A stretch of DNA of 64,000 nt, from positions 4,466,701 to 4,530,700 of the forward strand of contig OZ038450.1 of the NCBI GenBank assembly GCA_964036195.1, given 5' to 3'. This stretch comes from Sphaerolaimus hirsutus (lineage: Eukaryota; Nematoda; Chromadorea; Monhysterida; Sphaerolaimidae). Of the stretch, positions 15,337 through 37,906 are shown piece by piece (the stretch's first letter is position 1; every line of letters begins with the position of its first letter). The notes beneath the pieces are model-generated. The model was not told where the DNA came from, did not search any database, and saw nothing but the letters and a program-made list of their open reading frames with translations. A program made the translations under genes and the position numbers.

Positions 15337-16127
15337 TTTAAGGGTCATCTGTGGATTTACCTTGGAGAAGTGCCAACTTCCCAACCCTAGCAGAGAAGTA
15401 TTTACAGTTACTCGTTTACGGAGAATCATTAAATGTCATGTTTATGATTGCGGTTTTTATTATTAATTAATTGTGGTTTGTTGTAGTTTAATTAGTAATT
15501 TTGGTTAAGGGGAAAAGTTAGATTTTAATTGGAAGAGAGTGTATTTATTATAAAAAGCAAGCGTGAAAATCCACAAGAGAAAAGCAGTCATTATTTTGGG
15601 GTGAGAAGTAACAGTCTTAGTTAATTTGGCTTTTCAGTCAAGTAACTAAATGAGCCATTTGGAATTTTGGGGGCCCTTGGTAGGATCTTTTATGTGCGCA
15701 ATTTTCTCCTTTGCTGGAATTCTGTTTTCCAAACCAAAATCCAAAACTGACTGCTGTTTTCAGGTGGTCGGCGGTATTATAAAACCTATTTCACATGCGA
15801 CATTGCCGAATATCCCGCATGTGATTACATTGTCTGTCAACGCAATTCACCGCACAAATCCATCAAGCAAATCCATGATTCCCTATATTATTAAGCTAAC
15901 ATTGCGATAATAATTGCTGCTCAATTCACCAAGCGCACAGTAACAAAATCATGGCTGTGTAAAGTTAAGTAAAAATGACATCGCTCATGATTTTGCTCCT
16001 GTGCTTTATACAGTATTTCCAGTTTGAATCATCGTTATAAAATCATTAGGGCTGGAAAATCACCATGTATTAGCGTACCGAAAATAATTTCAATACTTGG
16101 CACCATGCCAAGGCCTATACCCTTACA
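15337..16127 (-). repeat. 3' LTR (left)
   Basis: In sense orientation it starts TGTAAGGGT and ends ACCCTTAAA; the ends are a 9-bp imperfect inverted repeat with one mismatch, so the terminus is AA rather than the usual CA. A sense TATAAAG lies at 16004-16010 and AATAAA signals at 15544-15549 and 15456-15461, giving a rough U3-R-U5 order. The opposite strand carries an 86-codon frame (15650-15910). Confidence 0.95.
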
Positions 16128-16143
16128 CTCGCCCCTCTTTGCT
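16128..16143 (-). promoter_or_regulatory. Polypurine tract
   Basis: In sense orientation AGCAAAGAGGGGCGAG abuts the first base of the 3' LTR, the position where plus-strand DNA synthesis is primed in retroelements. Confidence 0.85.
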
Positions 16144-16313
16144 GTTGTAATGCCCTCATACAACTTACTTAACAGTGAAATAGATAAAATGTAACATTCA
16201 GAAATGTAAAATGTGAATGCATAAAACCATCACCTTAGTTGACTCAGTAAATACTCAAACCAGGTGAAATTCAAAGTGTAAAAATACCATCAAAACTTAT
16301 GTTGGTTGTAATT

Positions 16314-19300
16314 TTAATTGGCACTTATCTTAAGTGTTTGAAAAGCCTGTAAGCATGCGATAGTATCCTGTGTTGAAAATTCCTTACGGGTGTTTGTCAG
16401 AAACCAAATATTTATCACGTGCTGCCCAGTAACGTATGTGTGTTCCAGGATCTTGAATTTGGTATCATCCTTGTGATTGATCAGCCGAATTGCCATGCCC
16501 TGTGGTACTGTCAACTGGATGTCTGTCTCTATATATTGTTTTTCCGTTGGCACAACCATGATCATGCGCCGTGGCATAATTTGCAGTGTATTGTTACTGG
16601 TTTCAGGGAACAATGCAAATATGGCCGAGCTGCTCACAAACAATCTTGGTACTGTTTGAATACCCATTTCTGGTTCTGGTTCTGGTTTTGCTGATTTTAC
16701 CAGTTCTCTCTGTAGTTCTGGTGAATTGTTGAAGATTTCATTCTCATATTCCATTGCTCCACCACTTGGCAGTGGGGTAGCCTTCCAGCGTGACATAGAA
16801 TCACCCAGCAGATCACAATATAGTGCACCAATTTCATCATTTTCTGGACATTGATTTATTTTTATCATCCCAATGACTTTTTTCTTTGGGTTCAACCTTA
16901 GGTTGTATCTGGTAGTTGTTCGAGGCCTGCTGTGCGGATATTTATGCACAATAGGCATTTCATCTTCATCTGAGTCCTCCAGGCCAATTGGGATGTCATC
17001 AGTAGCACCGCTCAACTCTGGCTGCAGTTGATTTGTGCTTGCTGTTACATCGCCTTGTGGTGATGTTTCTTGGTCTTTAGCCATGTCTACAGGCTGTTCT
17101 TCTTGTTGGTGCTCTGTATTTTGCTGAACTGCGGATTCTCCCTGTCCAAAGGTGGGATATATATCCTCCCTTGGATGCCACATTTTAACCAACATAGCTG
17201 GAAACTTGATGCTGGGTGCATCAGGCTCATTCCATTTTTGGATGTATACTGTCTTTGGTGGATTTCCGGTCATTTTTGTGACCATGTATGGTCCCACCCA
17301 GACATCTTTGGTTTTTCCTGTCTGATCCTTTGGAATGGTGAATGATTTCTTTAGTACCAGGCAACCTAAATGCAGCTTCTGTGCATTTGTGCATTTTCTG
17401 TCATGAATTTCTTTGTTTGTGTCATTTTGTACTTGGTTGCTCTTGTTGGCAAAGGCCCAAATCTGTCTCATATTGAGCAACAGGGTGTGCATGTATGTGG
17501 GGTATTCCATCATAGCTTCAAACTGCTTTGGCCGCAGGTCAGCTGCCACTGTAGTTCTTGGCATTTGTCCAAACACACACATGTATGGTGAGACGCCTGT
17601 GGCTGAATGTACTGCCATTCTGTTGGCCATCAGTGCATATGGCAGCCAAGTGGGCCAATCATGATGGTCCAAATCTCTCATACATGCTGCCAGTAGTCCC
17701 AATAGACTACGGTTTGCCCTTTCCACCATGCCATTGCTTTGTGGGTGAAATGGTGCTGTGCTGATCTTTCTGATCTGAAAGAGCTTCGTAATTTCTGTGA
17801 AAATTTCTCCTGTGAATGACGCATGACAATCTGATGTCAGGTACGCTGGTGCCCCATACTTGCAAATCCAATTTTCTACCAGCATCTGTGCTGCAGTTTT
17901 TGCATCGGTTCGCTCCACAGCCCATCCATCTGCCCAGCGTGAACATTTGTCCACCACCAAAAATACATAACTGTGACCAGAATAACTGGTAGGCAGTTCC
18001 AAATGGTCAATGTGGACCCATTCAAATGGCTGTAACACTGGCTGCATATCAGGCAGTGGCAGTCTTGTTTTTGGCACTGGTGAGTTGCGGGTTTGGCAGT
18101 GCATGCATGTTTTGACATAGTTGTACATGTCATAGCGCATTTCAGGCCAGTACAAATGTTGTGCCATCAATGACAAACTTTTCCTTGCATTCAAATGGCC
18201 TGCAACAGACGTGTCATGATGTTCCGCCATCATTTGTGCTCGCAGTGATTTTGGTACAAACACCCTCATACGTTTTGCCTTTTCAGGTGGTGATGTTGGA
18301 TTGCGTACATATGCCAGCAAGTTGGGATATGCGTAGTGTGGTCCCAAGCATGGTCTTTCACCATTTTCCATCTGTTTAATTAACTGCTGTGTCTCTTTGT
18401 CGTGTTCCTGGGCTGCTGCTAGCCTTTCTCTCCAATTTCTCAATTGATTTGGGGTTGGTTCACCAGCATCTTGTGGTGATTTCAACATAACCATTATTTT
18501 CACTGGTTCTGGTTGACTTTCAGTTGTTTTTTCTTTGTTAGTATTTCTTGGTCCCTTGTAAGGATCTTTGATTTCTTCTGTAGGTTCGTATGGTGGCAGC
18601 TGTCTCCACCAAGGCCTTGGTTTTGGAATTTTGGCATCATCCAACTCAATTTCCATTGGTGGATTGTCAATCCTTGCCAGTAATTCGTGGTCCTGACCTG
18701 TTGGTGCTCGTGACAAAGCATCTGCTACCACATTGGCTTTTCCAGGTCGATGTTTCACATTGAGATCATACCCTGCCAATGTCAAACAGATTCGTGTCAG
18801 ATACTGTGAATGCCCTTTTGCATTCATCAAATATGCCAGTGCCCTACTGTCTGTGTACACTGTCACTTTTCTGCCCATGCACAAGTGTTTGAACTTTTCC
18901 AATATCCATGCCAATGCTTCAGCTTCTCTGATCATTGCATGAAAATCATTGCGATTGTCAGCCACCATTGTTGATGCAAATGCAATTGGTCTGACCTCTC
19001 CAGTTTCTGGTTGACATTGTTCCAGCACTGCCCCGTACCCATGTACTGGTGGACAGGCTGCATCCACAGAAATGATCAACTCGAGTTCTGGTCTATAAAA
19101 TGCCAGCACTGGTGCTGACACCATTGCTTTTTTGAGTGATTCAAAGGCTGCCAATCTTTCTTCTGTCCATTCAAATTCAACACTCTCTTTTGTCAGTTCC
19201 ACCATTGGTTTGGCAATTATTGAATAATTCCTGATGAATCGCCTGTAAAATCCACACATGCCCAGAAATGATTTTACACCTGTCCGATTTTGTGGTAGTG

Positions 19301-22300
19301 GAAAATTTTCAATGGTTTGTGTCTTGCTGACATCCTGCTCAATGCCTCTGCCTGACAATTTGAAGCCCAGAAAAATGCATTCACTTGTTCCAAATAAGCA
19401 TTTCTTTGCCTTGAACTTTAAGCGGTACATTCTGGCTCTTTCTAACACTGCTGTTAAATCCTGCAGATGCTTTTCAACTGATGGTGATGCAGTTAGTAGA
19501 TCATCCATATAGGCCAGTACATTCTTGTTTATAATGGGCTCAAATATGGTAGTTATGGCTCTAGCATATGATGCTGGTGCCGTGCTGAGTCCAAATGGCA
19601 TTCTGGTGAAGTGGTATAGCTGGCCATTTGCTACTGCAAAGGCTGTTTTCTCAGCATCGTCAGGGTGCATTGGCAGTTGCCAATATGCTCCCAAACAATC
19701 CAAGCTACTAAAGATCTTTGGATTGAGCTCTGCAATTCTATCAAAAATCTCTGCCTGATCTGGTGCTGGAAAGGCATCACTCTCTGTGATCAGGTTCAGT
19801 TCCCTGAAGTCTTGGCGCAAACGGTGTGTGTCATCCTTTTTCTTAACCATGACAATTGCTGCACGCCATGGGCTGTTGGACTTCACAATGACACCTGATC
19901 GGAGCATTGAATTCAGTTGCTCTTCCACTACATCGCGGAGATGTGGTGGTGTCCTCCGTGGTGGCAGCTGAATGGGAGGTTTGTCACCTGTTCTGATACG
20001 GTGATATATGCCTCCTGTTATTGTTGTCAATTCACCATAATCTAATGCAAAACAATCATGAAATTGTTTTAGCAAATCTTTCAATTGTTCTTTCTGTTCT
20101 GCTGTCAATCCATCTCCAAATTCCCACACTTTCTCCAGTTTTTCCAAGCGTTCTTGAAGTGACTTCCCTGTCAGTTCATGTAAAATTATTTCATCTGGTT
20201 TTACTCCAGTATTTGGTTTCTGCATGTGGCTTCGGAATTCCTGATTAACTGCATTCACTGTTGTTTCTGGTGGTTTAGTGGTTTGTTGTGCCAATGGAAT
20301 TGCTGTACCAGCTAACTCCACATATCCAACAACTTCTCCTTTTGGTAGACATCTGTGTTGTGCTGACATGTTGTAAATATCAATGCATAACATGTCATGT
20401 CCACCTGGGACTCTGAGATATGGCAGCATCAACCCTCTGATGTTTGCAGCTGGCATTGGTATAAACACCAAATTTCTTTGAGGGTCACCTGATGGTAGTC
20501 CAGCTATCATAACTGGTATCCTTTTTCTGGTGTTACTCCTAATAAATTCTCGACTAATCAATTTCACTGGCCAGCTGGCTGCTGGTGGTCCTTGTGTAGA
20601 TGTTGAGTCACATGCGGGTCCAAGTCCAATTTGTCGTGATCCAATCCACACACGGTTGGTTGTATAGCAAATAGTCAGACGTTTAAATCTTCGGAGTAAA
20701 TCTCCACCCAGCAGTAATTCATCAGTCAGGTTCTTCACTACATGGAATGTGTGTTGCAAAGTCAGTCCAGCAATAATCACAGGAACAGTCACTTGCCCTG
20801 GAATGACCAGTGGATGACCAGTGATGGACACTAAATTGCTTTTTTCTGCCAATGTTTGTATTGGTCCGATTCCCAATGCATGCACAATTTTCTCATCTAT
20901 CAGACTGCATTGTGCGCCTGAGTCCAAAAGTGCTGCCAATGTTGTATTTGCAATACTGGCAGCAACATACAACAAGTTTCGTTTGTTGACAAATTGTATT
21001 GCTTTTACTTCATTGATTTTCTTTTGCATTTCTGATTGTTCATTTTTCTGGTTTGGTGATTCTGCCCATGCTTTGTCTTGGCCATAGTGTATGGTTAGAA
21101 CACCAACTGATCGTAGGACATCATTTCCCAGGATGACTTGGTCACCCAGTTCATCAGATACATGCAATGAATGTATGTGTTGCTGGCCCATCAGACCAAT
21201 TTCTGCTGTGACTAATCCTGCACTTGGTATCACATGTCCTGTTGCTGATGTGAGCTGTGATCCATCATTGGCTGTGGGCTCATACACCAAGTTGAGTGTA
21301 TCAGCCAAGTTCTTTCCTATCAGACTACATTGTGCCCCAGTGTCCAGCATGGCTGTAATCTGTTCTTCATTGATGAGCATCATGGCATTTGGCACTATGT
21401 AATGGTCTTCTGTTTCTGCTGCTGTGATCATATTTATGATCTCCACAGGCCTTAAGACGATTGTTTCACCATGAAGTGTAACACTCCGACCATGTGTCAA
21501 TGCTGGTGGGTTAGTACTTGGTCTAACCATACTTTCTATTTCAGATGGTGGTGCTGGGGCAGCTCTAGTAGGCCTTCTAATAGTTGTTGCCATGGGCATA
21601 CTATGCCTATGTGGATATCGATTCCTGAATCTTTGTACTGCTTGATAACATCTGCTGAGAGTGGCAATCTGCTGCCACATCCATTGGCTGAGTCTGATAA
21701 TGTAATCAAGTGCATTATGTGTCAGCTTTGCTCTGATGGCCAGTGGAATACAGCATTTCACCATGATAAAACACCATGCTGCCACTATTGGGATGACTGT
21801 CAGGATGATAACAATCTTCACCCATATATTGGATTTTGTTTTCATTATTCCTGTCACCACTGAATTCTGCGCCACTTGTTCAATGTTCTTTTTCACTGTC
21901 AGTTCCTGCTGCAGACCCAAGCCTGTCAGCAACTCATGGTGTGCCTGTAGCAAGTCAGTTTCATAAGCTTTGTCACTCCATTGTGAAAGTGCTTTGTATG
22001 GATGTAAGCCCATTGGCATGCTGGCTGCTGGTTCAATTTCAACCTGGTGCTGGTGTACGTATGTCAGTGGTAAGGGTGGTAGCTCTTTGATCTGCTGCAG
22101 AATTCCACTAACTGCTTCATATCTGACCGTTTTGTTATGTATTTGGAGTAGTTGTCTGTCGGCCATGGCACGGGGGACATCATATGTCCACTTGGTTATC
22201 ATTAATGTCTCTGGGCCCAGAAAGAATGGTCCTTTTTCAATTGCAGCAAACTGAATGGGTATATCTTTGGTACATTGGCCTGTTGTCACATTCATTGGTA

Positions 22301-23447
22301 GAATGTGATAAGTACCATTTGCTAATGGTCTGCAATACCACACATGTATGACATTACCCACTGTTTTGGCAGTAAGATATTGGTGCTCCAATATCATTCT
22401 GATGGTTTCAGTTGGATCAGATTTCAGCTGGCTAATTGTTATTGCATGCAGTGCTTTCAGCATTTTACAGTGATTGACCATTAAAAATTCAAAATAGAAT
22501 CTTTGTGATTGGTCTGCATGTAACTGCCTCAAAGTGGCTTTTGCTGCAGCCACCTCTGACATAGTTCGGTCTTCAGGAATGATGGTGATTCCTGTCAGTG
22601 ATTTGATTGCTGTGTCTCCACTGATGATTGTTTCTACAGCAAAACCTTGGTCACTCAAATACAATTGTTTTCCACAATCAACAATTTCTTGTGGTTTGGT
22701 AAATGTCAAAGCTAATAATCCATCCTCAGCAATCCATTGTCTCTGTAGACCAACACCTGGAAGCTTTTTCCATGGCTCATACCGGCATTCTGCAGAGGTA
22801 TTAGCTTGCCATATCAACAACTGATGTTCTGGTAGCACACATTGATTTTCTACATAGTGACATTTTGATACGTCAGTTCCTAATGTTGACCACATTTGAT
22901 TTTGTCTACTTTTCTGATATACTGTTGTTTGTTGCAATGCACACTGAGTGACTGTGGTTGACAATGTTTTACAACACCGGAAGCCACCATTTGTGGGTAG
23001 TTTTGATGCTGTGTTCCAACTCCTAAATTGGTTTGTCCCTGATGCCTTCATGTCTCCTGCTTTTTGACAATGATGGTAATCCATCATTCTTTTGCATTCA
23101 ACTGCTGATATTGATTGGGGTACATGTGTCACATTTGTATAACTGGTATACAGAAACGTAGTGTACTTTGTATGAATCTCTGTCCATTTGGTGCACACAT
23201 GTGCTTCTGTGACATGTTGGTATGTGTTTTGTCTATACAATTGCAATGTCAATTTGCTTGGTGCTGCGAACTCTGCCGTTGTTGAATACTGACATTTGAT
23301 ATCTGGTGGAATGGCATAACTGGCTGTTGGTGGTTGATCCATAGGGCATAACATTGGATCCATAGCTTGGATACAATGAGTGCCCAATGTGAACAGAATC
23401 AAATACAATTCCATGCTGAGAGTCTGTGATGATTTTACACTGAACAT
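16314..23447 (-). CDS. pol: Env-Pol fusion polyprotein, 2377 aa
   Basis: One uninterrupted frame. Residues 1-30: signal peptide (ELYLILFTLGTHCIQA). 30-540: Cys-rich ectodomain; a C..Y...C......W......C.Y pattern recalls chuvirus-type glycoproteins (weak). About 535-562: membrane segment (VKIVIILTVIPIVAAWCFIM), so the remainder would be cytosolic. About 700 and 843: two retropepsin domains (LDTGAQ, LDSGAQ). Then a linker, reverse transcriptase (RLRQDFRELN, AYMDDLL at about 1312), RNase H (TDSRAL about 1531, ADALSR), integrase with HHCC zinc site (HH...H, CMHC) and catalytic Asp-Asp-Glu (HIDHLE 1812, TSDCHA 1871, MVERAN 1905). About 2270-2377: dUTPase-like beta domain (VPQGMAIRL, FSTQDTIA). An acceptor (TTGTATTCATAG) precedes the ATG. 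Env placed before Pol in one frame is highly unusual; Env normally follows Pol. Alternative splicing or internal initiation could yield Pol alone. Confidence 0.9.
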   Translation of the reverse strand: MFSVKSSQTLSMELYLILFTLGTHCIQAMDPMLCPMDQPPTASYAIPPDIKCQYSTTAEFAAPSKLTLQLYRQNTYQHVTEAHVCTKWTEIHTKYTTFLYTSYTNVTHVPQSISAVECKRMMDYHHCQKAGDMKASGTNQFRSWNTASKLPTNGGFRCCKTLSTTVTQCALQQTTVYQKSRQNQMWSTLGTDVSKCHYVENQCVLPEHQLLIWQANTSAECRYEPWKKLPGVGLQRQWIAEDGLLALTFTKPQEIVDCGKQLYLSDQGFAVETIISGDTAIKSLTGITIIPEDRTMSEVAAAKATLRQLHADQSQRFYFEFLMVNHCKMLKALHAITISQLKSDPTETIRMILEHQYLTAKTVGNVIHVWYCRPLANGTYHILPMNVTTGQCTKDIPIQFAAIEKGPFFLGPETLMITKWTYDVPRAMADRQLLQIHNKTVRYEAVSGILQQIKELPPLPLTYVHQHQVEIEPAASMPMGLHPYKALSQWSDKAYETDLLQAHHELLTGLGLQQELTVKKNIEQVAQNSVVTGIMKTKSNIWVKIVIILTVIPIVAAWCFIMVKCCIPLAIRAKLTHNALDYIIRLSQWMWQQIATLSRCYQAVQRFRNRYPHRHSMPMATTIRRPTRAAPAPPSEIESMVRPSTNPPALTHGRSVTLHGETIVLRPVEIINMITAAETEDHYIVPNAMMLINEEQITAMLDTGAQCSLIGKNLADTLNLVYEPTANDGSQLTSATGHVIPSAGLVTAEIGLMGQQHIHSLHVSDELGDQVILGNDVLRSVGVLTIHYGQDKAWAESPNQKNEQSEMQKKINEVKAIQFVNKRNLLYVAASIANTTLAALLDSGAQCSLIDEKIVHALGIGPIQTLAEKSNLVSITGHPLVIPGQVTVPVIIAGLTLQHTFHVVKNLTDELLLGGDLLRRFKRLTICYTTNRVWIGSRQIGLGPACDSTSTQGPPAASWPVKLISREFIRSNTRKRIPVMIAGLPSGDPQRNLVFIPMPAANIRGLMLPYLRVPGGHDMLCIDIYNMSAQHRCLPKGEVVGYVELAGTAIPLAQQTTKPPETTVNAVNQEFRSHMQKPNTGVKPDEIILHELTGKSLQERLEKLEKVWEFGDGLTAEQKEQLKDLLKQFHDCFALDYGELTTITGGIYHRIRTGDKPPIQLPPRRTPPHLRDVVEEQLNSMLRSGVIVKSNSPWRAAIVMVKKKDDTHRLRQDFRELNLITESDAFPAPDQAEIFDRIAELNPKIFSSLDCLGAYWQLPMHPDDAEKTAFAVANGQLYHFTRMPFGLSTAPASYARAITTIFEPIINKNVLAYMDDLLTASPSVEKHLQDLTAVLERARMYRLKFKAKKCLFGTSECIFLGFKLSGRGIEQDVSKTQTIENFPLPQNRTGVKSFLGMCGFYRRFIRNYSIIAKPMVELTKESVEFEWTEERLAAFESLKKAMVSAPVLAFYRPELELIISVDAACPPVHGYGAVLEQCQPETGEVRPIAFASTMVADNRNDFHAMIREAEALAWILEKFKHLCMGRKVTVYTDSRALAYLMNAKGHSQYLTRICLTLAGYDLNVKHRPGKANVVADALSRAPTGQDHELLARIDNPPMEIELDDAKIPKPRPWWRQLPPYEPTEEIKDPYKGPRNTNKEKTTESQPEPVKIMVMLKSPQDAGEPTPNQLRNWRERLAAAQEHDKETQQLIKQMENGERPCLGPHYAYPNLLAYVRNPTSPPEKAKRMRVFVPKSLRAQMMAEHHDTSVAGHLNARKSLSLMAQHLYWPEMRYDMYNYVKTCMHCQTRNSPVPKTRLPLPDMQPVLQPFEWVHIDHLELPTSYSGHSYVFLVVDKCSRWADGWAVERTDAKTAAQMLVENWICKYGAPAYLTSDCHASFTGEIFTEITKLFQIRKISTAPFHPQSNGMVERANRSLLGLLAACMRDLDHHDWPTWLPYALMANRMAVHSATGVSPYMCVFGQMPRTTVAADLRPKQFEAMMEYPTYMHTLLLNMRQIWAFANKSNQVQNDTNKEIHDRKCTNAQKLHLGCLVLKKSFTIPKDQTGKTKDVWVGPYMVTKMTGNPPKTVYIQKWNEPDAPSIKFPAMLVKMWHPREDIYPTFGQGESAVQQNTEHQQEEQPVDMAKDQETSPQGDVTASTNQLQPELSGATDDIPIGLEDSDEDEMPIVHKYPHSRPRTTTRYNLRLNPKKKVIGMIKINQCPENDEIGALYCDLLGDSMSRWKATPLPSGGAMEYENEIFNNSPELQRELVKSAKPEPEPEMGIQTVPRLFVSSSAIFALFPETSNNTLQIMPRRMIMVVPTEKQYIETDIQLTVPQGMAIRLINHKDDTKFKILEHTYVTGQHVINIWFLTNTRKEFSTQDTIACLQAFQTLKISAN

Positions 23448-23864: not shown

Positions 23865-26828
23865 TTATTTTGAGGTTATTTGGGGTTTTTTATTTTGATT
23901 TGTTTCCCGTCCATTTAGTTCGAAAAAGTGTTTTGAGTTTTGTGCTGCGATGCAGTGTGGTAAATCACTTCTCTTCATCAGCGCTCTGGCCTCTGTCACT
24001 CTGTCTGGTCTCATTATGAAAGCGCCATTCTCGGCAATGTGAGAAAACAAAGTTTTCCATGCAGCTGTAGTCTTTGACAATGTGAACAGCGGTTTGAAAT
24101 CTGCCATGATCACAATGCATCTCCTTTGTCTGGTTAATGCTACACACAAATGCAGCATGTTTGTGAGGTGTGTCAGCTGGTTGTATCTGGTATTCACTGT
24201 CCACCCCGGGATCAAAATGATATCTGATGCCTGTGACCCTTGTGCAATGTCACATGTGGTCACTTTGACATTCATCTTTCTCTTTGATTTTCCATGCTTG
24301 ACTGACTTGCATCCCTCCAGGAGGTCAGCTTGCAGTTCTTTGTAATATGCCAGCACTTGAAGCTGTGACAAGGCCTCTGGGCCAGCTGTTGCTGACCATT
24401 CACTGATGAAATTGATGAACTGGCTCCTGGTCTGTTCACATTTTCTGCTGACCCTATTCCCATCTTTTGTCTGTGGAATGGCTTCTGTCTCCACATCTAA
24501 CCAGTAGATGGCAGGTAGATATTGCTTTGTGCCATCTGATAGCAGTTTGTATGGTATGGGAAATCCTGGTGGTGCATTGGCTCTAAATTCCTCCTTAGTA
24601 TGGAAGACGATTGGTGCAGTCAGATGGCCACCATATATCAGTTGCTTAACTAATCCTGCATGTTCAATTGGAGCCCTGTACACTTCACTCAATCTGAAGC
24701 ACTGCTGGCGCGGAATTGCTGAACTCATTCTGGTCAGTGCCCCCTCATTGAAAACTGTTTCCACAACTCTTCTGACAGCTGTGTGACCTAAAGTAGGCCT
24801 GCCCAACTGGTATTCATCTCCAAGCAATAGGACAATAAATCTCCTGCTGATTTGATCACTTGCACTGAGTAGGCACAGCAACTCACACAGCTCCATCTTG
24901 GTCACTTTAGTGGACTCATCCACCACCAACATGGAGAATCGGCACTCTCTAATTTTGCTTAATGCTGTGCTAATTGTTGCAGTCACAATTTGGCAGTCTC
25001 TATTGATCATATTATCCATTCCTGCTGTTTCCAGCTCCTTTTCATTCTGACACTGCTTCATTTGTTCAATCCATGATTCTGGCACTTGCTCATCCTTGTT
25101 CAATTTGCAGTCGTCTGGTATGTTGCCCTGGCGACTTCTCTCATATTGTTCCATTTTTCGGGCTGTTGCCTTGAGTTTATGGTGCCTCCAACCATGCTGC
25201 ATGGCTTCTCTGGTTTTGAGCCAGTCATCAATGGCAGCTGCCATGTTGTCTACTGCTCCATTGTCTGTTGCAGTGACCAAAACTTTGGTTGCTTGTGGCT
25301 CTGTTTTGTGCCTCTCAGCACCTGCTTGAAGGTGACGTGCTATACCCTTCACAGCAGTTGTATTCTTGCCAGATCCTGCCGGGGCTTTGATGGTGGCACA
25401 ATTGACATTTGTCTTCAAAGTGCTGAGTACGGCATCCTGTTTGTCATTGAGGCCATCTGGTCTGTCATCTGGGTAGGCATACACCGTATAATCTCTGTGC
25501 GCAGCGGGTATCATGTCTATTTGCCAGCGATGTTTTGGCAATAACACTTTCATGATTGCCAGTTCTGCCTCTGATTTCCATGGATTCATCAATGCATATG
25601 CTATGGACACATATGTCTGTTTGTCTTTTTCATCACTGACTTGTTGCTCAGTTTTGATGCATGCTTCACTCCTTCCCATTTTTCTGTGTTTTGTGAGGTA
25701 GTTCATTGCACCTTTTGACAGCACTGCCACACTAAGCTGTTGCCTAGTGCCATTCTGACATGGTGTGATAGCTGTCAAAATGCCTGGCACTTCTAGTTCT
25801 GGTTTCTTGAATGCCAGCTTTATTGGTGTGCAACTAGTCCATGTTTGAGTTTCCATTGGGACTTTCACATAAAACACTATGTGAGTAAAATCCTCTGATC
25901 TGATGATTTCAAAGTCACATGTCCATGGTGTACTTTGTCCTTTTGGCTGATTCATTTCTCTGGTCATTCTGGCCAGATGGTATTCATCTGCCAAGGTCTG
26001 CATTGCCTGGTAAATTAACATCTGTTCATCTGGTTCTTTCATCATTGCCACAATGTGAGCCCAATGCCAGGCCTGCCAGAACATCCATTCGATCTTGGCA
26101 TCTTGCTGTTGTTGGGTTGTGAGACAGCCCCCATTAGCTGTCTGTTCATATGGCATGAATGCCAGCCTTCTCAACTCTTCCAGTCCTTGCAAGGTTTCCA
26201 GTCGGTTTACATACAAGCCTTCTTGCAGACATAAGGCTGTGGTTGGAAAGTATATCATCACATGCCTGATTGACAGTATAGGTCCCACTTGGTTATTTAT
26301 TTCCATGCTTGGCGCCAAATCTGATATTTTCTGTAGTTTCTGAATACCTTTCATCAATGGTTGAATGATGCCATTCTCTTCAATGCCAGGGACCCAAAAT
26401 AGTGGCTGACCCTTTTGGATGCTTTCCACAATCACCTTTGGCATGGTGTGATCACAGATCCAAAATTCTTTGGTGTGCTTCCTGACAACTACTGACAATC
26501 CTGCTTGGTATGCCATTCCCAGATCCTTGATCTGACTGAGTATGCCAACCATTGGGGCCACAATTCCTCTTTGATTTTTCTGGCCAATCATTTTTTTCAT
26601 CACCATCACTTCACATCCCTGCCAGCTTGTTCCAGTAGCATACCTGGCAATTGCCAGATAATATGCAGGGACCTTTGCTGACCACAGATAGAGCTGTTGG
26701 AGGGGTGTTTTGATGTGTACCTGAGCCCACTGGCCTCTCTCCACTACTACTGTGGCTTCTGTGCCTATGAGCATTTCCCAATAGATATTCTCCAGAAGAT
26801 GTCGCAGATCTGACGGGACGTTCAGCAT
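23865..26828 (-). CDS. Upf1-like superfamily 1 helicase, 987 aa
   Basis: A predicted NTP-driven nucleic-acid unwinding enzyme. In order: Walker A APAGSGKNT (about residue 485), motif Ia-like VLVTATDNGAVDN, Walker B VVDEST (about 636), motif III LLLGDEYQLGRP (about 671), motif IV-like FRLSEVYRAP, motif V AQGSQASDIILIPG (about 865), motif VI CVALTRQRR (about 900). DEST, the QGS..D segment and VALTR are typical of the Upf1 branch of SF1. Walker A has Asn directly after the Lys where Ser or Thr is usual. Residues 1-460 are unrecognised, rich in Trp and Gln, and might form a Gag-like or regulatory domain. The frame is intact. It lies between Gag and Env-Pol on the same strand. LTR elements do not normally encode helicases; large-genome RNA viruses do. 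Confidence 0.85.
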   Translation of the reverse strand: MLNVPSDLRHLLENIYWEMLIGTEATVVVERGQWAQVHIKTPLQQLYLWSAKVPAYYLAIARYATGTSWQGCEVMVMKKMIGQKNQRGIVAPMVGILSQIKDLGMAYQAGLSVVVRKHTKEFWICDHTMPKVIVESIQKGQPLFWVPGIEENGIIQPLMKGIQKLQKISDLAPSMEINNQVGPILSIRHVMIYFPTTALCLQEGLYVNRLETLQGLEELRRLAFMPYEQTANGGCLTTQQQQDAKIEWMFWQAWHWAHIVAMMKEPDEQMLIYQAMQTLADEYHLARMTREMNQPKGQSTPWTCDFEIIRSEDFTHIVFYVKVPMETQTWTSCTPIKLAFKKPELEVPGILTAITPCQNGTRQQLSVAVLSKGAMNYLTKHRKMGRSEACIKTEQQVSDEKDKQTYVSIAYALMNPWKSEAELAIMKVLLPKHRWQIDMIPAAHRDYTVYAYPDDRPDGLNDKQDAVLSTLKTNVNCATIKAPAGSGKNTTAVKGIARHLQAGAERHKTEPQATKVLVTATDNGAVDNMAAAIDDWLKTREAMQHGWRHHKLKATARKMEQYERSRQGNIPDDCKLNKDEQVPESWIEQMKQCQNEKELETAGMDNMINRDCQIVTATISTALSKIRECRFSMLVVDESTKVTKMELCELLCLLSASDQISRRFIVLLLGDEYQLGRPTLGHTAVRRVVETVFNEGALTRMSSAIPRQQCFRLSEVYRAPIEHAGLVKQLIYGGHLTAPIVFHTKEEFRANAPPGFPIPYKLLSDGTKQYLPAIYWLDVETEAIPQTKDGNRVSRKCEQTRSQFINFISEWSATAGPEALSQLQVLAYYKELQADLLEGCKSVKHGKSKRKMNVKVTTCDIAQGSQASDIILIPGWTVNTRYNQLTHLTNMLHLCVALTRQRRCIVIMADFKPLFTLSKTTAAWKTLFSHIAENGAFIMRPDRVTEARALMKRSDLPHCIAAQNSKHFFELNGRETNQNKKPQITSK

Positions 26829-27203
26829 GTGAAATTCTCAAATCTGGATGTATTTTGCCATCTTGCATTCTGTCTTTGGCATATGTGACTCCATGCTTGG
26901 TAGGGTCACTATGTGGAATCAATGCCATTTGTCTTTTGTTCTCTCCTGGTGGCACTGAGTGTAATGCTCGTCTCAACTGGTCTGTCTCAAATCCTGCCAT
27001 GACCAGTCTGCCATCCAAAATTTCCTCTGTAACATATAGATTTTCTGGTTCCATTGGCTCATCCAATTCCTGCACTGTTTGTTCTGCCATTCCTGCACAA
27101 CTGTCATCCATTGATTCTGGTTCAACAGGTCCTTCCACCCAGTCATCAATGTCCCAGTCATAATACACTCTGGTTTCTGTTACATTTTCTGGTTGATCTG
27201 TTG
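26611..27203 (-). CDS. Acidic ORF upstream of, and overlapping, the helicase
   Basis: Open from a strong acceptor (CTTTCTTTTACAG at 27204-27216) with an acidic stretch (YYDWDIDDWVEGPVEPESMD) and no recognised domain. An ATG-started frame begins at 27312, with another in-frame ATG at 27223, both upstream of the acceptor; the acceptor may therefore fuse this frame to a leader start. It overlaps the helicase frame by 218 nt. Its composition past about 26830 becomes Ser/His/Arg-rich and looks out of frame, while the helicase frame looks coding there. A +1 shift around the TGA just before the helicase ATG would fuse the two. Alternatives are reinitiation, an unseen intron or a sequence error. Confidence 0.5.
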
Positions 27204-27393
27204 CTGTAAAAGAAAGTTGTTTCATTTGGTTTTTAATGTTTCTATAAGTATGTGATAAAATTCCTGGTATATGTTGTATAGAATTTTTTTTTGTTGTGTT
27301 GAGAAGTAACATTGCCTCTTCATGACAATAGTCATTAGAAGGCTAGAAAACCATCACCAAAATAAATCCACAAAGTTGTAAGTGGGTGTCAAT

Positions 27394-29094
27394 TCAAGTG
27401 TCAGTTGGCTCAGACTCCTCCACACTCATTTCAATATTGTTGTCCTTGACCATTGCCAGAAGTGCTGGCAGGTCATTCTTTGCCACACTGAAATGGCTCA
27501 TCATTTCTGGTTCTGAGTCTGAGTCAGCTTCACCATATTCTGCTGTGGTGCATTCATGGGCAACACGTTGAATCCTATATGCCATTTTCTGAGGCCCTGT
27601 CTGTTCTGCAGGCTTTCTAGGTCTTTCCTGGGCCTTTTCAAACCTTTCCTTTGGATATTTGTCAACCCCAGCTCCATCAGTCAGTTTCTGATTTCCATCT
27701 TTCTGCCCTGACTCATTCTGTGCAACTCGTGGTTGGTGAAAGCGGCGCTCGCGTGACCTATTGTGGTATTGGTTTCTGGGTGCTCCGGCCCTCTCCACTT
27801 TGGGTGCTACAGCTCTGGCTGTGTAGTTCACTTGTTGGACATTCATAGCTTTAGGAAATCGCCATCGGTGCAATGGAATTTCATCCAGTTTTTCGTTATT
27901 ATTGCCCATTGCGCCCAACAAATTCACTTGGGGATTGTTAGATGCCCAGCCCATGCCTGCATTTTTCATTCTGGCTGCACTTTCCTCTAACTTTTCCAGC
28001 ATAGACATCAGCAGTTGGAAGTCAGTGGGTGGTTCGAGTGATTGAATGGATACTAAAGCCATCAATTCATCTGACATGCTGCAGAAAACTTTTTCACCAG
28101 TTCTTTGAGCCACTTGCTCGATGGATGCTGTGGGATTCAGTGCGCGCACCAAGCGGTGCACATGGTCAGCATACTTGGTGATTGGTAAGTGCCCTTGTTT
28201 TGCAGCATCCAGTTCCCTCAGCATAGCATTGCGCCTAGCTGGTGTATGGAATCTCCTTTCCATGGCTTGGCAGAGTTGGCACCAATCCATGCGCTGGGTA
28301 AACGATAACTCTTCATAACATTGCAGTGCTGGTCCAGACAGAAATGGAGGCAGCAAATCGCACATCTCGCTCTCATTCAAGTCCAGCGATTTTGCCATTG
28401 TGATGAAGTTTTCCACAAACATCGCCCATGCTTGATCACTTTCCCCTGTGAAAATGTTCATTCTGCGCTGCATGTTTGCCATTCTGAGCTTCCATGTGAC
28501 TGTATTCACAGCATTTTTGCGAGGGTTCCTGTTTGATTGGTCACCATTGCTATCTGGAGTCCGCCCAGTCTGTCCCATCTGCCGTTCACGTGCAAACTCT
28601 TGCCTCATTTGGTCTCGAATTTCAGTGGCTAGAATCTTCACAATGTCATTCTGGTTTGTGCCCACCACATTTGCTCCTGGGTTCGCTGGCTGTGCATGTG
28701 GTACCACTGCAAATGACAGATCCTGTGGCGCCTGCTGAACAAGCCTGCCACCTTGATCCTGATCCCTTGTTTGCTGTGCTGCGGCATTCATCTCCTTCAC
28801 AATCTCTGCAGCTGCCATCTGGACAGCCTGCCCTTTCAACTCCAATATCTTGAGCAGCGTGTCCACTTTCATTTCAGCCATAACTTCTTTGAACTGTTCC
28901 CTCAATTCCTCCTGGACTCCTGGGGAGTTATTCAGCATTTCCACCATTGTATTGTATGCCTGTTGCAGGGGGCGCAGATGCTGTGTCTTGTCAGCACTGG
29001 TCGATGTCATCAACCTGACAGCCTCAGTTATCATTCTGTCATCTCCAGAGGGTTCGATTTGCCCCAGGGCATCTGTGCAAACATTGGCAAGCAT
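27394..29094 (-). CDS. gag: Gag-like capsid protein, 566 aa
   Basis: The structural protein that would assemble the intracellular particle and package RNA. After a helical, Gln-rich N-terminal region, residues about 210-370 form a Ty3/gypsy retrotransposon gag (capsid) domain: GESDQAWAMFVENFITMAKS, PPFLSGPALQCYEEL, then WCQLCQAMERRFHTP and the tail of the helical repeat. The C-terminal part is Arg-rich (NRSRERRFHQPR) and then acidic. No CCHC zinc knuckle is visible, so RNA binding may rely on the basic patch. A polypyrimidine-AG acceptor ends 12 nt before the ATG, so the mRNA is probably spliced from the leader. It is followed by the acidic ORF after about 190 nt. Confidence 0.85.
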   Translation of the reverse strand: MLANVCTDALGQIEPSGDDRMITEAVRLMTSTSADKTQHLRPLQQAYNTMVEMLNNSPGVQEELREQFKEVMAEMKVDTLLKILELKGQAVQMAAAEIVKEMNAAAQQTRDQDQGGRLVQQAPQDLSFAVVPHAQPANPGANVVGTNQNDIVKILATEIRDQMRQEFARERQMGQTGRTPDSNGDQSNRNPRKNAVNTVTWKLRMANMQRRMNIFTGESDQAWAMFVENFITMAKSLDLNESEMCDLLPPFLSGPALQCYEELSFTQRMDWCQLCQAMERRFHTPARRNAMLRELDAAKQGHLPITKYADHVHRLVRALNPTASIEQVAQRTGEKVFCSMSDELMALVSIQSLEPPTDFQLLMSMLEKLEESAARMKNAGMGWASNNPQVNLLGAMGNNNEKLDEIPLHRWRFPKAMNVQQVNYTARAVAPKVERAGAPRNQYHNRSRERRFHQPRVAQNESGQKDGNQKLTDGAGVDKYPKERFEKAQERPRKPAEQTGPQKMAYRIQRVAHECTTAEYGEADSDSEPEMMSHFSVAKNDLPALLAMVKDNNIEMSVEESEPTDT

Positions 29095-29106
29095 AACTTA
29101 AAACAA

Positions 29107-32619: not shown

Positions 32620-34782
32620 ATGGGTTTTATGTATCCCTCTGTGAGCGCCCCTCCTTGCTGAAACTGCTCTCTCCCATCATCTCAGGTGCTCGCTTTGGCT
32701 GTCGGCTCTGTGGGCTTCGATCCCGGCGATACTGGCATAGTGGGCGGATTGTGCCAGCTGGACCAGGCCGATGCAGTGCTCCTTTGCAATGGGACGCGCC
32801 AGCAGCTCCAACAGGCGACAGCCCTGCCCTGGGCTACTCGAATTCCAGGGGGTCCCTTTGTGGTGCTGTGGGGGGAGACAGGTGTCCACCCCTGAAGGAG
32901 CTGGGTCGCTTTGCACATGTTACTGTGTGCTATGAGGTCAGTTTGGGTGAATGTTTGACATGTTGTTGTTATTTTGACATTTTTCTATTTTCTTTTGGTT
33001 GGGTTGATATTTAGCAAGTGGTGATTTCGTAAATTTTTGTTGAAATGTGTTGGTGAATTTTGAGGGTGAAAACTTGGGTATTTTTGTTTTTAGGATTTGG
33101 AACTGAAGTTGGCAACCACGTTGGCGCCCACAACCTACCTGCCCGCAACCGCAACCGACCCCATGATATCCCAGTGAGTTGGGGTTGGTTGTAAATTTTA
33201 TTTATTTATGTTTTTGTTTTGAATATTTTGTGGTGTATTTTGGGTAAAATGGGAATGTATTTACTGGTGATTTCTTACATTATCTTAATCCCATGATCGT
33301 TCCTTTATGCAGGCCCGCTATGGCCAGCACCTTGACGAGCTCCACTTTCCGCTCCACCTTGGTTCCCGCCATGGTCATTACCACTAGGAAACCAGCCAGG
33401 AAATTTAAGTGAGTTAGCTAATAGTTTTGGGAATTTTTATTTTTTATTTTTACCTTGTCAAGTTTTATATGGGATTTTTATTTTTATTTATTTTTGAAGA
33501 GTAGTTTGAGAACATACCTGATTATTCCTGTTTCCATTCAGGGTGGTGGTCTTCTGCCATGGCCCTTGCCTAGGCCAAACTGCTGTGATGACCGTTGGGC
33601 CTGGTACCAGTACGGACACTATTTACGACACTGCTGCCCGGAAATTTGGTTTCGGCACCGAGCGGCTCAGCATTGTGGATGGCTACAACCATTACCTGCC
33701 CAGGCGCAAGAACTTGGCCCAGTGTGGCATCACTGGCTCAGAGCATTTTGTAGCTAGTGGTGAGTGGGTTGCTTTTTGTGGTGTTTTTTTGTTTTCTTTT
33801 TGGTGTTGTTTGGTGCAGTTAGGGTTAGGTGTTCACAAAAAAAACAGTAGTGAGTTGTGTATTATCTCCTTTTCAGTGCGGAAGGCAGTCACCCCCACCA
33901 CGGCTGTGCCCACAGCCATAGTTTCAAGCAGCACCAGCAGTACCACCACCACCAGGACCACAACTAACCTGCTGTCCACTGCCACATCCACCATCATTCT
34001 GACCAGCCCAGCCACCAGTTCCTTGTCAGATACCACGTTTAGTGATGTCTGGTCAAGCCAACAAACCACCCAACCTGAGACTGCTGAGCCTGATGATCTG
34101 GTGATTGCTGTTGCTGCTGAGCCCACAGATGGAGGAACAGGGTTTTGGGGAGATACCACTGTGAGTTTTGGGTGTTATTCAGTGGGTTTTGGTGCATTTT
34201 TGGCATTTTAAACTTAAGAGTGCATGTGTGAAAGCATGTTTGCATTTTATGCATTTTGCTGTCCATTACAGGTTGCCGACGCGGTTCTGGCCTTCGTGTT
34301 TGCTGTCCCCTGCGCCATCATCGTGTTTTTCATCTGGGAATCGCTGGTTTTCTTGTGGAGAACTCGAGGCTCTGACCCAGTGAGCACGTCTTCCGTTGAG
34401 GATGGTGTGGACGAATTTGTGCTCAATGTGGCTGGCGAAAATGCTCTAGGTTAGAAACATTTCACATGTCTAATTTGAGGTGTTTTTTAATACTTTTGTC
34501 AAAGTAGCATTATTTTTTACCGTCACTCATGCTTTACACATTTTTGCAGAGTGCCACTCCATGCTGAGTTTCCGGTCCGCGGTGGACGAAATGGGTGCTG
34601 CATCGAGGGCTGAAAACGAAAGTGTAGCTGCTGGTTTGGCCATTCCCATGCAGCCTAGGTGAGCTATAGGCTAGGTGAAATAAGTGCTGATGCATTGTGA
34701 AATGAAAACTTCATTTTGTCATTTTCCATTCAGGTTCTCCGAGGCCTATGTGTGCAGCAGGGTGACTGAGACGGAGTGCTAG
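32620..34782 (+). CDS. Unknown type I membrane protein with Ser/Thr-rich stalk, antisense inside the LTR element
   Basis: Nine exons: 32620-32640, 32686-32936, 33094-33173, 33313-33408, 33542-33759, 33877-34160, 34272-34449, 34550-34658, 34734-34782. All joins are GT-AG and phase-consistent from exon 3 on. The start is a hydrophobic stretch (VLALAVGSVGF) that may be a signal peptide. The ectodomain has VVVFCHGPCLGQTAVM and KFGFGTERLSIVDGYNHYLP, then a long Ser/Thr-rich mucin-like stalk, a membrane segment (VLAFVFAVPCAIIVFFIW) and a cytoplasmic tail of about 100 residues. Exon 2 holds a frame problem: its first part reads well in one frame, but its last 15 codons fit exon 3 only in another, with the switch near the six-G run at 32871-32876. 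This may be a base-call error, a mutation or a mis-set splice site. I recognise no family. Confidence 0.55.
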
Positions 34783-35089
34783 ATGTAGGATTTGTAGTGT
34801 TTGGTAGATTTTGGTGTAGATTGGACAGTTAGAGTTTTTGTGGAGATTTTCTTACCTTTGTTCTGTCAGATAAGTAATTGTCCCATTTGTCTGTCTAAGC
34901 CTTACCTCATGATAGATTCTGCTGCCAGTAGGACATCTTGCTAGTAAAATGTATGTCCGCGCTTTGTAATGCTTAATTTGGTGTATTTTTATCTACTTCA
35001 TGGTGCATTTATTTTACCTGTTTGTAACAAATGCAAATGCAAAGAAACTGCCATTGCGCAGGAAATTTTCTAAACTAAATTTACTAAAA

Positions 35090-35768
35090 ATGTCTCAGCG
35101 GCTGGCTAAAATTCCTGGCATTCCCCCAACTAAGCGGAATTACAATAAGCAGCCTAATTCTAGCATGGTGCAAGTGGTGTCCAAACTAAAATTTACCTGG
35201 TGCTTTTCGGTGCACACTGTCATGGCTTTTCTGGTGGCATTCATTTTACTGGGTGTCATTCTGTTGATTGGGCTCTATGGCTACTTGCCTGGCTATTTTG
35301 TGACTAGTAAGTGTATTTTTTGAAACCTAGACATGCGGAATCAACTTACCATGAAAAATCGGGATTCACATTTTTCTTGTAGCCTCCACTTGTTATGACT
35401 GCAATGTTTTGCCTCCCTGGCGCCAAAACCCTGACAGTTTTCCCTGTGGTCAGTGCACTGGGCACTATTGCATCAAGAGTGACACCATGTTGGGCAGTCA
35501 GTTTCAATTTTTATTATTTTTACTCTCCGGGCATTTGCATTTGTTGCACATTTGCATTCATGCTTCAGCTGCTCTGTCTAGCCAGAAGAGTTGTGGTTTT
35601 GGCCAGATTCCTGCGGCTGACGCCTGTGAAACTAAGGAATGGGAATCTGGGGTGCTCCAACATCATTGCTACTGCACTGGGCACTTGTGTAATGTGGGTG
35701 CCGTGAAAGTGTACTTTTGGTTTTCAATTGCTTTTGGATTGGTGGGCATTTTGTTGTTGCAGGTGTAA
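35090..35768 (+). CDS. Ly6/uPAR (three-finger) membrane protein, antisense inside the LTR element
   Basis: Three exons, 35090-35306, 35383-35496 and 35569-35768, join with consensus borders and matching phases. About 40 basic N-terminal residues are followed by a hydrophobic segment (MAFLVAFILLGVILLIGLYG), probably a signal anchor. The ectodomain holds ten cysteines in the order CxxC, CxxC, C, C, C, CxC and a final CN; the opening STCYDCN and closing HCYCTGHLCN are hallmarks of the Ly6/uPAR (LU) three-finger fold. A C-terminal hydrophobic stretch (WFSIAFGLVGILLLQV) is either a GPI signal or a second membrane segment. An in-frame ATG at 35000 would add 30 residues. It lies 0.3 kb after the other antisense gene, opposite in strand to gag-pol. 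Introns mark it as a spliced, cellular-type gene. Its function in the element is unknown. Confidence 0.7.
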
Positions 35769-37001: not shown

Positions 37002-37010
37002 CAGTCGGTG

Positions 37011-37112
37011 TCATTGGCCTCTGTTGCCATTTAGTTGCCATTCTGCTGTCACAGAGATGGTTTTTTGGACTCTTTCCAACTCGTGAAAGAAAGAATAAAA
37101 CTCGGGAGCCAT
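37011..37112 (-). CDS. Leader upstream ORF, 33 codons
   Basis: An ATG that overlaps the start of the primer-binding site opens a 33-residue frame (MAPEFYSFF...) ending 11 nt before the proposed leader splice donor. It would be the first AUG downstream of the 5' LTR and could influence translation of unspliced RNA. No function can be assigned; it may be incidental. Confidence 0.3.
   Translation of the reverse strand: MAPEFYSFFHELERVQKTISVTAEWQLNGNRGQ
37101..37111 (-). promoter_or_regulatory. Primer-binding site
   Basis: In sense orientation TGGCTCCCGAG starts four bases after the 5' LTR. The leading TGG complements a tRNA CCA tail. I could not assign the tRNA. Confidence 0.8.
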
Positions 37113-37428
37113 TAATTTAAGGGTCATCTGTGGATTTACCTTGGAGAAGTGCCAACTTCCCAACCCTAGCAGAGAAGTATTTACAGTTACTCGTTTACGG
37201 AGAATCATTAAATGTCATGTTTATGATTGCGGTTTTTATTATTAATTAATTGTGGTTTGTTGTAGTTTAATTAGTAATTTTGGTTAAGGGGAAAAGTTAG
37301 ATTTTAATTGGAAGAGAGTGTATTTATTATAAAAAGCAAGCGTGAAAATCCACAAGAGAAAAGCAGTCATTATTTTGGGGTGAGAAGTAACAGTCTTAGT
37401 TAATTTGGCTTTTCAGTCAAGTAACTAA

Positions 37429-37689
37429 ATGAGCCATTTGGAATTTTGGGGGCCCTTGGTAGGATCTTTTATGTGCGCAATTTTCTCCTTTGCTGGAATT
37501 CTGTTTTCCAAACCAAAATCCAAAACTGACTGCTGTTTTCAGGTGGTCGGCGGTATTATAAAACCTATTTCACATGCGACATTGCCGAATATCCCGCATG
37601 TGATTACATTGTCTGTCAACGCAATTCACCGCACAAATCCATCAAGCAAATCCATGATTCCCTATATTATTAAGCTAACATTGCGATAA
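37429..37689 (+). CDS. LTR-internal opposite-strand ORF, 86 codons
   Basis: Present in both LTRs (also 15650-15910). The frame opens MSHLEFWGPLVGSFMCAIF, which could be a membrane segment, and has a TATAAAAAG box about 100 bp upstream on the same strand (37328-37336; 15549-15557). No family recognised; it may be incidental to the U3 sequence. Confidence 0.3.
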   Translation: MSHLEFWGPLVGSFMCAIFSFAGILFSKPKSKTDCCFQVVGGIIKPISHATLPNIPHVITLSVNAIHRTNPSSKSMIPYIIKLTLR

Positions 37690-37782
37690 TAATTGCTGCT
37701 CAATTCACCAAGCGCACAGTAACAAAATCATGGCTGTGTAAAGTTAAGTAAAAATGACATCGCTCATGATTTTGCTCCTGTG

Positions 37783-37789
37783 CTTTATA
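37783..37789 (-). promoter_or_regulatory. TATA box of the 5' LTR
   Basis: Sense-strand TATAAAG, about 118 bp inside the U3 edge of the LTR. It is the best core promoter match on the sense strand and would drive the genomic RNA. Confidence 0.55.
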
Positions 37790-37906
37790 CAGTATTTCCA
37801 GTTTGAATCATCGTTATAAAATCATTAGGGCTGGAAAATCACCATGTATTAGCGTACCGAAAATAATTTCAATACTTGGCACCATGCCAAGGCCTATACC
37901 CTTACA

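Follow-up and report, generated by a model that had tools for sequence, protein, structure and literature searches.

We analysed a stretch of 64,000 nucleotides from the genome of the nematode Sphaerolaimus hirsutus (the window, to which all coordinates without a contig label refer). On its minus strand, at positions 15337–37906, lies a 22.6-kb element bounded by long terminal repeats (LTRs), which we interpret, with a probability of about 0.8, as a giant Ty3-like endogenous retrovirus that is one of a lineage in the host genome. In the sense direction its order is 5' LTR, an 8.0-kb leader, Gag, ORF2 (an open reading frame), a UPF1-like helicase, a single frame for an envelope protein (Env), two proteases (PR), reverse transcriptase (RT), RNase H (RH) and integrase (IN), and the 3' LTR. 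Two multi-exon genes occupy the + strand, antisense to these: gene A at ∼32.7–34.8 kb and gene B at ∼35.1–35.8 kb. We also think it probable that the lineage has so far not been described, that it carries intron-containing antisense membrane-protein genes as permanent cargo, their orientation letting spliced genes survive the RNA stage, and that its own UPF1-like helicase copies or protects a genome of >20 kb. The original prediction, made from the letters of the window, had listed 791-bp direct LTRs, a GCTAA duplication, a primer binding site, a purine tract, Gag and Pol, and in addition a helicase, an Env-Pol fusion and antisense cellular-type genes. All of these were found, with the element on the minus strand: Gag, the helicase and Pol by Pfam, Env by profile search and Foldseek, and the antisense genes as the two multi-exon genes on the + strand.

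Structure of the element and its copies in the genome

The 3' LTR (15337–16127) and the 5' LTR (37116–37906), both on the minus strand, are identical at 791/791 bp and have the termini TG...AA. The target-site duplication GCTAA occupies 15332–15336 on the 3' side of the element and 37907–37911 on the 5' side. A polypurine tract (16128–16140, minus strand) lies directly inside the 3' LTR, and a sequence resembling a primer binding site, TGGCTCCCGAG (37101–37111, minus strand), lies 4 nt inside the 5' LTR. Rfam gave no match at the gathering threshold, and a tRNA search of the window and five small contigs found none.

The host assembly (348 Mb in 762 contigs labelled C1, C2 and so on, at least 11 of which exceed 20 Mb; the window copy, W, is on C1) was searched with the LTR, which gave 28 match rows. 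Twelve short partial rows were left out; the other 16 were full-length at ≥95% identity and comprised six pairs, three solo-like LTRs and one single LTR that adjoins a purine tract and is without a partner among the LTR matches. Long copies are enclosed by five of the pairs, on five large contigs: C1 (window), C2, C6, C7 and C15. The sixth pair (C3:22468665–22476988, L017) marks an older deletion derivative, from which Gag, the helicase and nearly all of Env-Pol are gone and in which the LTRs and the antisense region are retained, as if the antisense region alone could be mobilised in trans. Every pair has a different 5-bp duplication (GCTAA in W, CAAAT in C15, AGACA in C6, TTATG in C7, ATTGC in C2 and CCATA in C3), and the differences between the LTRs of a pair amount to 0/791 in W, 9/789 in C15, 0/790 in C6, 0/790 in C7, 0/791 in C2 and 16/794 in C3. 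The 15 bases adjoining the 3' LTR on its purine-tract side are identical in all six two-LTR insertions, and the same 11 bases of the primer binding site occur in five of the six. Two of the three solo LTRs have a perfect 5-bp duplication and the third has 4 bp only.

The check that the original prediction had proposed, to look for other copies in the assembly and align them for shared modules, came out in its favour, as the helicase, Env-Pol and the antisense region lie at the same place in the other four long copies. All modules are at the same places in these copies, with 97–99% identity per block. The C2 copy has an 816-nt deletion in Env-Pol, and ∼0.76 kb is gone inside its gene A. This 816-nt deletion is the sole length change of Env-Pol in the four copies, none of which has a stop in the codon columns of the window. 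The helicase region contains an 11-nt deletion in C15 and a 527-nt insertion in C6, and a short length difference separates W from the other four long copies near the overlap of ORF2 and the helicase. As the modules recur in five long copies, each with a different 5-bp duplication, the arrangement is not a product of chance; that these insertions have it in common also shows that the element moves as one unit by LTR-type insertion.

The same comparison bears on two trivial explanations. Misassembly of the contig is refuted by five copies with the same structure at places with different flanks and by related families with the same plan, and we give it practically no weight. Host genes could also have become enclosed by two LTRs through a nested insertion or a segmental duplication, which would make the element a private composite; spliced cellular-type genes inside an LTR element do resemble captured host DNA. 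However, the arrangement recurs in all five long copies, which lie on five large contigs and have different 5-bp duplications, and in three divergent families genes A and B stand at the same place (see below). These independent copies and families refute the composite, which is scarcely more credible than misassembly.

Gag, the helicase and the Env-Pol frame

All sense genes lie on the minus strand. Gag (566 residues, 27394–29094) was recognised by Pfam Retrotrans_gag (E = 1.2e-6). ORF2 (233 residues, 26611–27312), an open reading frame, overlaps the frame of the helicase (987 residues, 23865–26828), whose membership in the UPF1-like branch of superfamily 1 (SF1) is indicated by an AAA_11 (E = 2.1e-12) and AAA_12 (E = 1.5e-10) core and by SF1 motifs read from the translation. 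The window copy is a poor guide to the length of the helicase gene, since the open frame there is 1113–1161 residues long in the C2, C7 and C15 copies compared to 990 in the window; many genomic helicase loci have open frames of ∼1130–1180 residues. We counted at least 38 helicase loci in the genome, at ∼35–100% identity, including the window, and five of them represent the window family. This is a lower bound: 55 match rows were merged by hand, second pieces of interrupted frames were left out and 46 of 74 candidates were scored. Outside the window family the related helicases reach ∼35–62% identity per match and belong to several families. A search of 5.8 billion proteins, which reaches only proteins of 0.55–1.75 times the query length that share exact words with it (P0097, discussed below, could not appear), gave no relative of the helicase at E ≤ 1e-3. 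There was no match to the helicase among PDB sequences, and a viral-contig collection scanned with the helicase and Env-Pol yielded nothing confirmed. The helicase core folded alone had a mean pLDDT (model confidence) of 35.7, and this model was not used.

Between pairs of long copies, the ratio of nonsynonymous to synonymous change (pN/pS) was 0.07–0.26 for Env-Pol, 0.05–0.36 for the helicase and 0–0.20 for Gag, where changes were few. Judged by these ratios, the Gag, helicase and Env-Pol frames are under purifying selection, and the genes of the family have stayed functional until recently.

The Env-PR-PR-RT-RH-IN frame is a single ORF of 2377 residues (16314–23447; Pfam). Its Pol part comprises aspartyl protease domain 1 (21111–21380; gag-asp_proteas, residues 690–779), aspartyl protease domain 2 (20682–20981; Asp_protease, residues 823–922), reverse transcriptase (19356–19847; RVT_1, E = 2e-24), RNase H (18768–19169; RT_RNaseH_2 and RT_RNaseH) and the zinc-binding and core domains of integrase (17742–18257; Integrase_H2C2 and rve). 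One Pol frame thus holds two aspartyl protease domains in tandem (20682–21380). The order PR-RT-RH-IN is that of Ty3/Gypsy (Metaviridae), and the 5-bp duplication in 6/6 window-family insertions fits the 4–6 bp of that group. LTR termini of the form TG...CA are usual, though not universal, for Ty3/Gypsy; here we found TG...AA instead, in the window family and in two related families (F57 and F45, below), and therefore call the element Ty3-like. The gene order of Retroviridae, with env as a gene of its own downstream of pol, is ruled out, as Env forms the N-terminus of the Pol frame. Troyka elements, defined by a 3-bp duplication and CG...CG termini (PMC12440569; here and below, statements on published work refer to the parts of the cited papers that we consulted), are ruled out by the 5-bp duplication and the TG...AA termini. 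The search for related proteins used the best 120 of 175 matches, and the nearest RTs among the matches listed had ≤42% identity. In a quick RT tree, which left out 7 of 122 proteins by length and had no named Ty3 clade references, the window RT sat on a long branch (1.33).

The Env part (21588–23447) matched Pfam Monjiviricetes_fusion at E = 1.8e-5, yet under the curated cut-off (23.3 versus 27 bits). A profile of six Env proteins found herpesvirus gB among PDB sequences at E = 3.8e-9. The AlphaFold model of Env had a mean pLDDT of 52.9 and was confident only across much of residues 31–376; with it, Foldseek found nyavirus/rhabdo-like G (6.6e-22) and gB (3.5e-17), with whole-length TM-scores <0.31 among the matches listed. 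Taken together, the profile and fold matches point to a predicted class III fusion protein of the type represented by herpesvirus gB and nyavirus/rhabdo-like G. In our reading of the model, Env would have a signal-like N-terminus and a membrane anchor near residues 540–570 (a helix at 540–572, in a low-confidence part). Two proteins from the search, P0057 (C. remanei CRE_22626) and P0056 (JGI), pass the Monjiviricetes_fusion cut-off and have Pol domains in the same protein. Another profile, made from the Env of the window together with four proteins, gave no further match among the proteins gathered, P0056 included, though Pfam finds the fusion domain in P0056. In the quick tree the window RT stood apart from those of the Gag-Env-Pol proteins P0005, P0057 and P0074, which suggests either an early origin or repeated origins for the placement of Env ahead of Pol.

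The Env-Pol pN/pS of 0.07–0.26 indicates that Env belongs to a frame under selection, but it does not separate intracellular spread from infection. The element might thus be a giant Ty3-like retrotransposon that is no longer infectious, with Env and the antisense proteins acting only inside the host germline (in cell-to-cell movement) or not at all. Its copies are chromosomal insertions, with identical LTRs in four of the six, and the evidence contains no sign of particles or infection. We regard such a retrotransposon as a serious possibility, somewhat short of an even chance, and prefer the endogenous retrovirus.

The antisense genes and the related families

Besides the window family, four helicase families of the same genome were compared: F57 (57% in the helicase), F45, F38 and F41. 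From its sequence, gene A reads as encoding a type I membrane protein with an ectodomain, a Ser/Thr-rich stalk, an anchor and a tail, in at least eight exons on the + strand. Exon a (32686–32938) has borders set by eye and 70% amino acid identity to F57 over 47 residues; exon b (33094–33173) is supported by GT-AG borders and phase agreement. The remaining exons, which like exon b were compared between copies, are c (33313–33408), d, the ectodomain (33542–33759), e, the Ser/Thr-rich stalk (33877–34160), f, the membrane anchor and tail (34272–34449), g (34550–34658; 43% identity to F57) and h, with the stop (34734–34783). Gene B, also on the + strand, likewise reads as a three-exon Ly6/uPAR-like protein with an N-terminal membrane segment (exon 1, 35090–35306; copy and family comparison), the first half of a 10-Cys domain (exon 2, 35383–35496), and the second half with a hydrophobic C-terminus and the stop (exon 3, 35569–35768; family comparison). 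The 10-Cys pattern, ending CxC...LCN, was read by eye over exons 2 and 3, and the domain is a putative Ly6/uPAR (LU) domain. Pfam gave nothing above cut-off for 10 antisense pieces; below it were QVR (E = 0.02, for exon 3 of gene B alone) and Baculo_F (E = 0.038, for the piece around exon 1 of gene B).

Reading phases agree across the antisense introns in the window. Eight introns (six in gene A after exon b, two in gene B) were tested, and their GT-AG borders are kept in W, C15, C6 and C7; the intron that follows exon a was identified by eye alone. For variants in the two genes we pooled five of the six copies, with C2 outside because of its deletion and C3 used for what remains there. Gene A had 34/300 synonymous versus 38/879 nonsynonymous variants (ratio 0.38; Fisher 3.7e-5) and gene B 9/116 versus 12/406 (ratio 0.38; Fisher 0.030).

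We asked how far the plan of the window element extends to the other families. An F57 copy (C3:24140059–24162446) is 22.4 kb long, with LTRs of 776 bp that are 99.87% identical and the duplication GTGTC. Its Gag is 53% and its Env 63–67% identical to the window, a helicase is present, and genes A and B lie antisense at the same place, with the introns of gene B at the same places as in the window family; Env in the copy read is in two overlapping frames, not one open frame. Between the window and F57, exon 2 of gene B has 81% protein identity, with a nonsynonymous divergence (dN) of 0.13 and a synonymous divergence (dS) of 1.56, that is, with synonymous sites nearly saturated; dN and dS were 0.30 and 1.43 for exon 3, and 0.61 and 1.34 for exon 1. 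F38 (example on C9 near 25.82 Mb) has 40% identity in Gag, 53% in Env, 83% in the first 156 residues of the RT piece and 61% in a later Pol stretch, and carries at the same place, in antisense orientation, gene A (51% in exon a and 33% in exon d) and gene B (62% in exon 2 and 58% in exon 3); no LTRs were located for it. An F45 copy (C2:8979755–9002574) is 22.8 kb long, with LTRs of ∼1.46 kb that are 99.9% identical, the duplication CTGGA, and 42% identity in Gag, 45% in the helicase and 54% in Env. Around the helicase of F41 (C1:22914277), neither Gag nor Env was found in the 6 kb upstream or the 3 kb downstream. The 5' region was read in four families, and genes A and B were seen in three of them (the window family, F57 and F38, not F45). 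The original prediction that the element may represent a new lineage of large endogenous retrovirus-like elements gains support from the five long copies with shared modules and from the related families of 22.4 and 22.8 kb in the same genome.

The link between gene B and the element holds genome-wide. Exon 2 of gene B has 27 strong places in the genome (E ≤ 2.9e-12), 26 of which lie 3.2–21.7 kb from a helicase locus, in all 26 cases on the opposite strand and 5' of the helicase; the 27th is the C3 derivative, in which the helicase was lost. Twelve of the 38 helicase loci are without a strong place, and the weak matches (10 of 37 rows; E 0.0015–0.047) include none within 40 kb of a helicase. 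As exon 2 has no strong match outside these elements, gene B is best regarded as element cargo, and any remaining host ancestor of it in the genome, if there is one, is too distant to call. The term cellular-type, applied to these genes from the window, holds in that they are spliced and would encode membrane proteins; gene B has to be seen as element-borne.

Several observations weigh against the overall interpretation of the element. Within the window family, control frames gave ratios of 0.42–2.69, and one wrong opposite-strand frame of gene A reached 0.42 compared to 0.38 for the gene itself, indicating that the within-family test is unspecific and that the comparison between families weighs more. 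The ratio of gene A in pairs of long copies scatters over 0.17–1.35, with few variants and pairs too similar to judge, and gene B in two pairs had 0 synonymous versus 4 and 2 nonsynonymous changes. In W, no single frame stays open across exon a of gene A (in F57 the exon is open); in the C3 derivative this exon contains a stop, another exon differs in length and one splice acceptor is altered. When spliced ORFs were sought ab initio, the result was 918 nt versus a shuffle mean of 374, but the maximum of 60 shuffles was 936. The Walker A motif of the window helicase (∼25350–25450) is GSGKNTT, with Asn after Lys, while its remaining SF1 motifs seem normal. In F45 the sense plan is present, but neither gene A nor gene B was detected. 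Finally, the helicase frame of F38 is interrupted, and the copy read has stops in all three frames in two interrupting stretches, so the helicase may not be needed everywhere in the lineage.

Alternatively, the antisense frames might not be genes but by-products of a region that is transcribed into noncoding antisense RNA with a regulatory effect on the element. Such transcripts have been described for LTR elements (PMC7264820), the ab initio search was weak and the long-copy ratios rest on few variants. Nevertheless, the exon frames agree across introns in the window, the borders of eight introns are kept in four copies, and exon 2 of gene B keeps 81% protein identity to F57 at nearly saturated synonymous sites, with the introns of gene B at the same places. 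This makes a purely noncoding origin improbable. We conclude that the two spliced antisense genes are retained in the window family and that they are conserved from one family to another, as far as their sequences can tell; they look real, and purifying selection on them appears clearest between families.

A separate observation concerns the helicase family with 35–38% identity: its frames are disrupted at almost identical query positions in seven loci, including L057 (C9:25822300–25828300), and in the copy read the interrupting stretches have the word GTACTTTT in common.

Proposed mechanism and comparison with known elements

The functions of the Env, helicase, A and B proteins are those that we infer from their features. 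A genomic RNA of ∼21 kb would start in the 5' LTR; Gag would package it, PR, RT, RNase H and IN would carry out its copying and insertion, and membrane fusion by the class III Env would allow spread between cells or hosts. The UPF1-like helicase would most likely handle the very long multi-cistron RNA, either by unwinding it for packaging or reverse transcription or by shielding it from nonsense-mediated decay. The latter role is suggested by most retroviruses having a stop between gag and pol and needing mechanisms that prevent decay (PMC10309623). Genes A and B would have their own promoter and give ordinary spliced mRNAs. By our reasoning, a sense gene with introns would risk the loss of stretches when the genomic RNA is spliced; in antisense orientation the introns would not be removed from genomic RNA, and a spliced gene would therefore pass the RNA stage unharmed. 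The Ly6/uPAR-like protein and the stalked type I membrane protein would most likely alter the surface of the producing cell or of the particle, much as the accessory proteins of complex viruses do.

Antisense placement may thus be a route by which a retroelement retains cellular-type genes with introns, and this idea can be tested directly in a genome that contains no fewer than 38 helicase loci and has 27 strong places of a Ly6 exon. In large RNA genomes, such as those of nidoviruses, a helicase appears once length grows. The element extends the retroelement tool kit by a helicase gene, which bears on the limits of retroelement size.

Among the closest published counterparts in plan is Burro, the giant gypsy-like LTR elements of planarians, which exceed 20 kb, have a Ty3-like Pol and accessory domains, and carry an env that is homologous to mononegavirus fusion proteins and in frame ahead of PR (PMC6431247). 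The window element likewise exceeds 20 kb, with Env in frame ahead of PR and a Ty3-like Pol. Unlike Burro, which encodes one polyprotein of 4,873 residues starting with Gag and including BIR, BCL2 and ankyrin domains, it has a separate Gag, and these three domains were not among the Pfam matches of the five window frames scanned. The text consulted on Burro (PMC6431247) mentions neither a UPF1-like helicase nor an antisense gene, both of which the window element has. In CRE_22626 (P0057), P0005 and P0074, as in the window, a homologous class III Env (23–24% identity) lies between Gag and the RT part, but Gag is fused to Env-Pol, the proteins are shorter, no helicase domain was reported in them and their RTs are elsewhere in the tree. 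P0097 (an NCBI protein of 3930 residues) also joins a Ty3-like Pol with a UPF1-like helicase (AAA_11, AAA_12), but there the helicase follows the integrase in one polyprotein and Pfam finds no Env domain. The window helicase has no blastp match to P0097 at 1e-3, and P0097 possibly represents a second acquisition of this helicase type.

Glycoproteins of the type found in negative-strand RNA viruses also occur in other LTR elements: a mosquito Pao retrotransposon captured a chuvirus glycoprotein, with no clear capture by Gypsy elements reported in that source (PMC10084718). The window element resembles it in this respect but is not of the Pao family. Conserved antisense additional ORFs are carried by the plant LTR retrotransposons Grande and Retand, in Grande with their own promoter (PMC7264820). 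The conserved antisense genes of the window are similar in principle; in the plant elements, however, the antisense ORFs discussed lie between pol and the 3' LTR (PMC7264820), whereas those of the window lie 5' of gag, have several exons and would encode membrane proteins. The word intron is absent from the main text of PMC7264820. Giant size and Env in frame ahead of Pol, in Burro, and antisense genes, in plant LTR elements, are therefore already known from these sources. Among the titles and beginnings of abstracts listed for the literature covered (preprints outside the scope), none described a UPF1-like helicase gene lying between gag and env-pol, or multi-exon antisense genes for membrane proteins that are conserved in an LTR element, which does not prove that no such report exists in print. 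The gene combination had been described at the outset as outside the usual gypsy or retrovirus plan, and this stands for the helicase and the spliced antisense cargo, for which no precedent was found, but not for Env fused ahead of Pol, known from Burro (PMC6431247) and from C. remanei (P0057). There is a fair chance that specialists would treat the element as a new lineage.

Two further observations concern the host. Contig C762 (L046) is its mitochondrial genome, 14,754 bp long, in which nad1 adjoins cox1 on the opposite strand. At conserved places of cox1, TGA is read as Trp and AAA as Lys. The flatworm mitochondrial code differs from this reading of AAA, so that code is unlikely for C762; the hosts of Burro are planarians, and in this respect the host of the window element is unlike them. 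In the window itself, 10 host-flank frames gave nothing above cut-off in Pfam, and large inverted repeats lie in host DNA on both sides of the element, at 11305–14074 (784-nt arms) and 44085–45223 (370-nt arms). These repeats are likely to be other mobile elements.

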